From contig PBTO01000032.1 in the NCBI GenBank assembly GCA_002726595.1, positions 1 through 40,249 on the forward strand: 40,249 bases of DNA, read 5' to 3'. Of this stretch, positions 31,831-32,778 are shown piece by piece (the first letter of the stretch is position 1; every line of letters starts with the position of its first letter). The notes under the pieces were generated by a model. That model was given only the letters and a program-made list of their open reading frames with translations, did not search any database and was not told where the DNA came from. Position numbers and translations under genes: made by a program. The stretch is from Gammaproteobacteria bacterium. Its GTDB lineage: Bacteria; Pseudomonadota; Gammaproteobacteria; Pseudomonadales; Pseudohongiellaceae.

Positions 31831-32230
31831 GACTTTACTCCGTTGTTCTTGTTGTCAAAAAGAGGGACGTTAATAGTACCGGTGAAAGTTTGCCAATCTC
31901 AGGAGGAGAGTAACCAGTAAAGGCGTCCGCTTGTATACGCTAAATATGCGGCCGTCAGCTGGTAGATTAATTTTATCGATCTCCTTTCCAGAGTCGCCGT
32001 TGCTAGCATATAACAGGGCAACGGACCCGTCACTGCCTGTGTTTGTCTAAATCGACTTGAATTTGGCCCCCATAGTGTCGGTATTGTCGCTACCGGCGGC
32101 TTGAGAGGCAGGATTAGCCCAAAAAGGGCCAGTGTCTGAGGTATCCCCAAAAATTTAAAGCTCATCGTCTAAGCGTTGGTGTGTTTAACGGGCTTGGGCT
32201 TGGCAAACGTAGGTAATTGATGCGTGTATC

Positions 32231-32342
32231 GGGGATTGGAAAGGGGGTACTGTTTTTCCGTTCCTATGGGCCATCCCTGGCCCGTCCCGCGCTTCATCCC
32301 TGGCGCTAGTCACGGAAAAACAGTACACCCTCCCCAATCCCC
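32231..32342 (+). repeat. Structured palindromic intergenic element, copy A
   Basis: 31-nt arms GGGGATTGGAAAGGGGGTACTGTTTTTCCGT / ACGGAAAAACAGTACACCCTCCCCAATCCCC (28/31 complementary) around a 50-nt core with two CATCCCTGGC mini-hairpins. Confidence 0.85.
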
Positions 32343-32505
32343 TGTCGGATTCACTGTTCTTTTTGAACTCCTAATCCCGGTGCTTTTGCAAGAAAAGCCA
32401 GAGAAGTACATGGTCATAGTCTCGGTTGCTGTTTTTGATAAAGCCTAGAAGTCAGAGACTGTTGCTTATCTCTCAGTTATGCCTCAGATGTAGATAAAAA
32501 CTCGA

Positions 32506-32617
32506 GCGAGCTTGGAATAGGGGGGTGTTTTCTTGTGACTAGCGCCAGGGATGAAGCGCGGGACGGGCCAAGGATGGCCCAATGGAGCAAGAAAACAATC
32601 CCTTATTCCAAGCTTGC
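32506..32617 (-). repeat. Structured palindromic intergenic element, copy B (inverted relative to A)
   Basis: ~30-nt arms GCGAGCTTGGAATAGGGGGGTGTTTTCTTG / CAAGAAAACAATCCCTTATTCCAAGCTTGC around a core 32535-32580 that is the reverse complement of 32268-32313 at 45/46 positions. Confidence 0.85.
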
Positions 32618-32778
32618 GTTCTAACCGTATAGCACCAGCAATAAAAATGGGTACATTACACGCAAATATTAGTCTAATCTATTGGTTTAGCTCGACATAC
32701 TTTGGGGTATCTCAGGGTCAGTGCAATAAACAAGATCATCTCTGAAAGTCTGATTGCTTCCTTGCTCGTGGTTCCCAG

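Follow-up and report, generated by a model that had tools for sequence, protein, structure and literature searches.

The window, a 40,249-nt stretch of DNA, carries an inverted pair of cloverleaf repeats that belong to a real and widespread structured family, borne here by a MITE. The family is large and mostly uncatalogued: Rfam has distant relatives, none of which covers it, and an incomplete search of the literature found no description of it as dispersed CsrA-type repeats. We regard it as an even call that the unit is a mobile three-way-junction RNA element, probably acting as a CsrA/RsmA-binding decoy or leader. Among the options raised by a sequence-only reading of this DNA (a REP/BIME-like element, a core inserting into terminator palindromes, or a structured RNA), the structured RNA is the best supported.

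The cloverleaf pair and its carrier

The core of copy A (32268-32313) and the reverse complement of that of copy B (32535-32580) are identical at 45 of 46 positions, and each holds two inner hairpins; CATCCCTG occurs twice in core A, in the loops at 32272-32279 and 32295-32302. The arms around the cores (36 nt in A, 30 nt in B) are unlike each other, yet each set pairs with itself. In A, 31 of 36 positions are paired (32231-32266 with 32307-32342), and in B 26 of 30 form Watson-Crick pairs (32506-32535 with 32588-32617), the remainder being mostly G.U. The sequence-only reading had described just such a pair of inverted palindromes, with near-identical cores inside stems that differ and remain paired, and that part of it stands. 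None of 200 dinucleotide shuffles folded as well as A or B (z scores: A, -8.7 and -9.2 on its two strands; B, -7.9 and -8.8). In both copies the strand with GGA in its loops folds better by 6-9 kcal/mol, this being the minus strand of A (-73.1 versus -67.4 kcal/mol on plus) and the plus strand of B (-64.5 versus -55.2 kcal/mol on minus).

Table 1. Positions of the cloverleaf pair and of the repeat that carries it
Feature	Position	Strand	Remark
MITE-like repeat, 581 bp, without a long ORF	32135..32715		contains both cloverleafs; ends CTGAGGTATCCCCA / TGGGGTATCTCAG
Presumed 8-bp target-site duplication, left copy GGCCAGTG	32127..32134		7/8 match to 32716-32723
Left terminal inverted repeat CTGAGGTATCCCCA	32136..32149	+	
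Cloverleaf A	32231..32342	- (predicted RNA strand)	loops CAGGGATG
A inner hairpin P2 GGGCCAGGGATGGCCC	32268..32283	-	
A inner hairpin P3 GCGCCAGGGATGAAGCGC	32289..32306	-	
A-B spacer	32343..32505		conserved in the genome's long copies
Cloverleaf B, in inverse orientation to A	32506..32617	+ (predicted RNA strand)	
B inner hairpin P3 GCGCCAGGGATGAAGCGC	32542..32559	+	
B inner hairpin P2 GGGCCAAGGATGGCCC	32565..32580	+	loop CAAGGATG
Right terminal inverted repeat	32702..32715	-	
Presumed target-site duplication, right copy GGTCAGTG	32716..32723		

What the earlier interpretation overlooked is the enclosing 581-bp MITE, with its terminal repeats and flanking 8-bp repeats. Comparison with the genome's other copies places A, the spacer and B in the interior of this repeat (Table 1), whose ends read CTGAGGTATCCCC, starting at 32136, and GGGGTATCTCAG, ending at 32715. 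The carrier thus has both terminal inverted repeats and target-site duplications, the features by which a MITE is recognised. The flanking 8-bp duplication is exact in copies L040, L057 and L064 (by script) and L056 (by eye), and is not clear in several others.

A search of the window's own genome (a 3.0-Mb, 164-contig MAG) collected about 35 full or partial copies, a number that is approximate and slightly inflated, since identical element copies on two contigs each (C42/C87 and C70/C161 of G000) suggest duplicated MAG contigs. With these copies, and with covariation in homologues, a single local inverted duplication, which the sequence-only reading had held against its own interpretation, is ruled out as the origin of the pair. 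The MITE copies are degraded and recombined. Many are short, the left arm of A being joined to the right arm of B at the GGGCC hairpin, while in others the core is flipped or that hairpin carries 50 extra nucleotides. This 50-nt insert (GTTATGTACATGGATGTACGGTATGCAGGTTTTGCAGGAGCAAAAACCTGC) sits at the tip of P2 in L020, L022, L025, L027, L037, L171 and L179 and itself folds into two hairpins whose GGA loops are on the opposite strand; L064 and L074 have shorter, perfect-palindrome versions of it, and elements of two species (L187 and L181) show a different type of P2 expansion, with CCAATCTATGATTGG. Often the MITE is inserted next to short repeats of the GGGACAGA/GGGACGGA type or hairpins at the ends of genes (for example in L046, L053, L055 and L060), and these GGGACAGA/GGGACGGA-type flanks may possibly reflect a target preference or form the outer part of the termini. 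Among the own-MAG matches listed, no terminal-repeat pair surrounded a gene as in an autonomous relative. The core is also found outside the MITE, and the best explanation for the window genome is that the pair was captured by the MITE and then spread by it.

A family with locus-specific stems

Using a covariance model (R1) for the family search, we found matches in 14 of the 84 genomes representing the genus, in a patchy distribution and with up to 38 copies; their outer stems fall into 31 classes among 99 matches, members of different classes having under 70% of the arm in common. At the level of the order, 42 of 343 genomes have matches, which cover 20 of the 131 genera sampled; most show a related core composed of ACACGCCGTGAA, CCCATCCATGGG, GGCTCG, GCGCCATCCATGGCGC and CACGG. 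Here too the stems are locus-specific, typically 22-34 bp and nearly perfect (1517 of 1592 scored pairs are Watson-Crick), and a few loci have a short stem only, as judged by script. Matches to Ysr224 below threshold carry the same core layout further into the class, and a Marinobacter plasmid carries one relative. Carriage by plasmids or phages was considered and rejected: plasmids searched with copy A gave no match, the Marinobacter-type relative as query hit plasmids once, with a short match, and phages not at all, and viral contigs held no exact match. A high-copy repeat of the f21/g56 genomes (L229, L230 and L232), with a fixed stem GCAGGCTTGAATCCGTGGGC and a GGGCCATCCCTGGCCC hairpin, was set aside as it looks like a separate MITE.

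The combination of a conserved loop with a variable but paired stem, to which the sequence-only reading drew attention, is real, recurs widely and covaries. In the outer stem, 154 cells are changed on both sides; shuffled controls gave 45 and slid controls 30-47. This is clearest at a locus shared by two sister genomes, which are 87% identical there over 4.9 kb and both hold an inverted pair. One of the elements keeps all 60 nt of its centre (60/60) while its arms differ, and in the two elements 8 and 11 stem pairs are changed on both arms, with 2 one-sided changes each. A second sister locus has 3 both-arm changes and no one-arm change, so that the sister genomes together show 22 stem pairs changed on both arms and 4 on one arm. 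Since both arms change around an unchanged core at orthologous loci, the stems seem to be co-evolving or arm-templated, and the idea of a core inserting into existing terminator palindromes finds no support. Quasipalindrome correction by template switching also predicts few intermediates, and such copying is a known pitfall when covariation is taken as proof of RNA function. Covariation alone is therefore no proof of selection on RNA, and arm-templated copying by itself could explain the paired arms.

As a rule, units occur as inverted pairs. Among close neighbours, 22 are inverted and 9 direct, of which 7 come from one genome, G025; at order level, about 19 partners lie within 200 nt and all face outward. 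The G025 locus L101:4513-6300 (G025:C1:2768513-2770300) consists of about seven cloverleaf units in tandem, at a period of 270-278 bp, and one inverted unit after them; it sits between genes which we take, from their sequence, to be ilvN-like and ilvC-like. In at least four genomes pairs sit between the divergent genes ssb and uvrA (names read from translated start sequences), where the intergenic region is 632-692 bp long; the region lacking an element measures 195-332 bp in most genomes and 399-414 bp in two. G023 has an ssb-uvrA pair with a related core. The 577-bp ssb-uvrA region of G003 (L206) contains a long hairpin with an unrelated core (GCGCCGAAGGAGCG...). Intergenic copies in general lie close to genes, in divergent as well as convergent regions and in mixed orientation to their neighbours. 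An inverted pair would mean that read-through from either side carries one GGA cloverleaf, and the ends of transposable units are also inverted. The sequence-only reading also suggested that the two copies could pair together. In its kissing-loop form this was rejected: loop identities within pairs are uncorrelated (4 of 16, permutation p 0.55). Inspection by eye for the RYYYAAC/GTTRRRY boxes of integron attC sites found none.

Strand asymmetry and GGA loops

Stem mismatches are not evenly divided between the strands. Counted as distinct events on the GGA strand, they comprise 44 G.U and 16 A.C (p 4e-4). Of 18 informative stem clusters, 17 show a G.U excess (p 1.4e-4), and an independent order-level set gave 37 G.U and 15 A.C (p 0.003). 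A pure double-stranded DNA role would give no strand preference, and the G.U bias thus points to a single-stranded function of the GGA strand, which likely acts as RNA and less likely as single-stranded DNA.

On this strand both inner loops read CANGGAYG, a hexaloop ANGGAY closed by C-G. Position by position the loop is C-A-N-G-G-A-Y-G with N free, and GGA is invariant among the tabulated loops, whose hairpins were gathered with a TCC filter, one TAC exception being seen elsewhere in the order-level set. The RsmZ loop is likewise A(N)GGAX closed by C-G (PMC4005645), and the inner hairpins show this CsrA/RsmA-type arrangement of an A(N)GGA loop on a C-G pair. One CsrA dimer uses GGA sites spaced 10-46 nt apart (PMC6028588), a range into which the spacing of about 20 nt within the core falls, fitting a single dimer. 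Moreover, TwoAYGGAY (RF01731), a proposed CsrA-binding RNA (PMC4333381), aligns end to end to the GGA strand in 13 of 13 matches, every score being below gathering (best 36.9 versus 43 bits; 28.2 and 22.3 for the window elements); two loops lie within an outer stem, as in that family, and read ANGGAY with N mostly G. Ysr224 (RF02770) aligns to the opposite (TCC) strand, and its gathering score of 70 bits is reached in none of 274 genomes of the class. No known Rfam family matched at threshold, matches to miRNA families being long-hairpin coincidences. The gene for CsrA is present in four of five carriers tested (G025, G012, G098 and G055); the window's own MAG, which is 93% complete, yielded none. 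CsrA/RsmA binding sites are a good guess for the inner hairpins, and the best specific one.

Proposed explanation, alternatives and known systems

We suggest that the unit is a three-way junction in which a locus-specific outer stem of about 22-40 bp is capped by two short GGA-loop hairpins. A host transcript reading through it would yield RNA from the GGA strand and may present the two loops to one CsrA/RsmA dimer, as a decoy or leader, with the long stem holding and protecting the loop pair. The usual inverted arrangement might then ensure that read-through either way gives one GGA-type cloverleaf. Several observations count against this: the flipped cores of some MITE copies, the opposite-strand GGA loops of the 50-nt insert, the missing csrA in the window MAG, the Rfam scores below gathering, the strand of Ysr224, and the paired arm changes with few intermediates, which could be products of template switching between arms.

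Alternatively, the two-hairpin core could be the site of a strand-specific nuclease or recombinase acting on single-stranded DNA, with the inverted pair as element ends and the arms self-copied. We think this rather unlikely, though the fixed inverted arrangement resembles transposon ends, cores flip within their stems, the ssb-uvrA region shows presence and absence of the element, and a G.T bias is also compatible with one strand acting as single-stranded DNA. No transposase is linked to the copies, however: Y1 transposase genes lie on contigs C52 and C103 and no copy-bearing contig has one, which likewise leaves the RAYT-driven REP/BIME proposed by the sequence-only reading without support. 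Nor are the stems at the two ends of a pair related, and target duplications flank the MITE termini rather than the cloverleafs, while the loops fit the CsrA consensus at each position.

A MITE family in decay and without function, in which quasipalindrome template switching keeps the arms paired, would account for the degraded, recombined copies and for the excess of both-arm over one-arm changes between sister genomes. It is quite improbable given a core left unaltered amid arm changes, a loop consensus kept across many families and a strand-specific G.U bias. Slightly more doubtful still is a role in mRNA stability or processing, as for REP, NEMIS or YPAL hairpins, with the stem stopping exonucleases or serving as an RNase III site and the loops being incidental. 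Stems of 22-40 bp, intergenic copies near genes and the precedent of YPAL (PMC2229807) favour it, but copies also occur in divergent regions as well as convergent ones, and the invariant GGA loops are left unexplained.

More speculatively than for the CsrA/RsmA-binding element itself, we can envisage that mobile CsrA/RsmA decoys, working in either direction, form a superfamily across the Gammaproteobacteria. In these inverted pairs of three-way-junction RNAs, CsrA would fix the loops, arm-templated copying would keep rewriting both arms together, and a global regulator would be tuned or parasitised by selfish repeats; this broader view is tentative. If the CsrA/RsmA reading is right, common and mostly uncatalogued intergenic repeats would be dispersed CsrA/RsmA-binding RNAs, and mobile elements would rewire or buffer a global regulator. 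The both-arm stem changes between sister species also offer a clean natural system for separating RNA-structure selection from template-switch copying.

Among known systems, REP/BIME elements are likewise intergenic hairpins in inverted pairs, whereas the cloverleafs have no linked RAYT or conserved foot tetranucleotide and their stems are locus-specific. YPAL/RU-2 of Yersinia, likened here by description only, are intergenic palindromic mobile repeats of about 168 bp with target duplications (PMC2229807), which are 3-26 bp long compared to 8 bp for the MITE. The sponge RNAs CsrB, RsmY and RsmZ share repeated GGA hairpin loops closed by C-G, but each is a single gene acting in trans, with its own promoter and numerous sites, whereas the cloverleafs are dispersed repeats that have a long stem, two sites and no known promoter. 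The Yersinia sRNA Ysr224 has the layout of the order- and class-level relatives (ACGCCGUAAA, CAUCCAUG hairpin, GGCUCG, GCCAUCCCUGGC hairpin, ACG); it is annotated on the TCC strand, and the window core has other linkers. TwoAYGGAY (clan CL00106) shares a poorly conserved outer stem and two (A)NGGAY-loop hairpins on the same strand, with full-length alignments in all 13 matches. It differs in its linkers, and the cloverleafs score no higher than 36.9 bits against its threshold and have mostly G rather than Y as second loop base; high copy number and inverted pairs are features of the cloverleafs described here.
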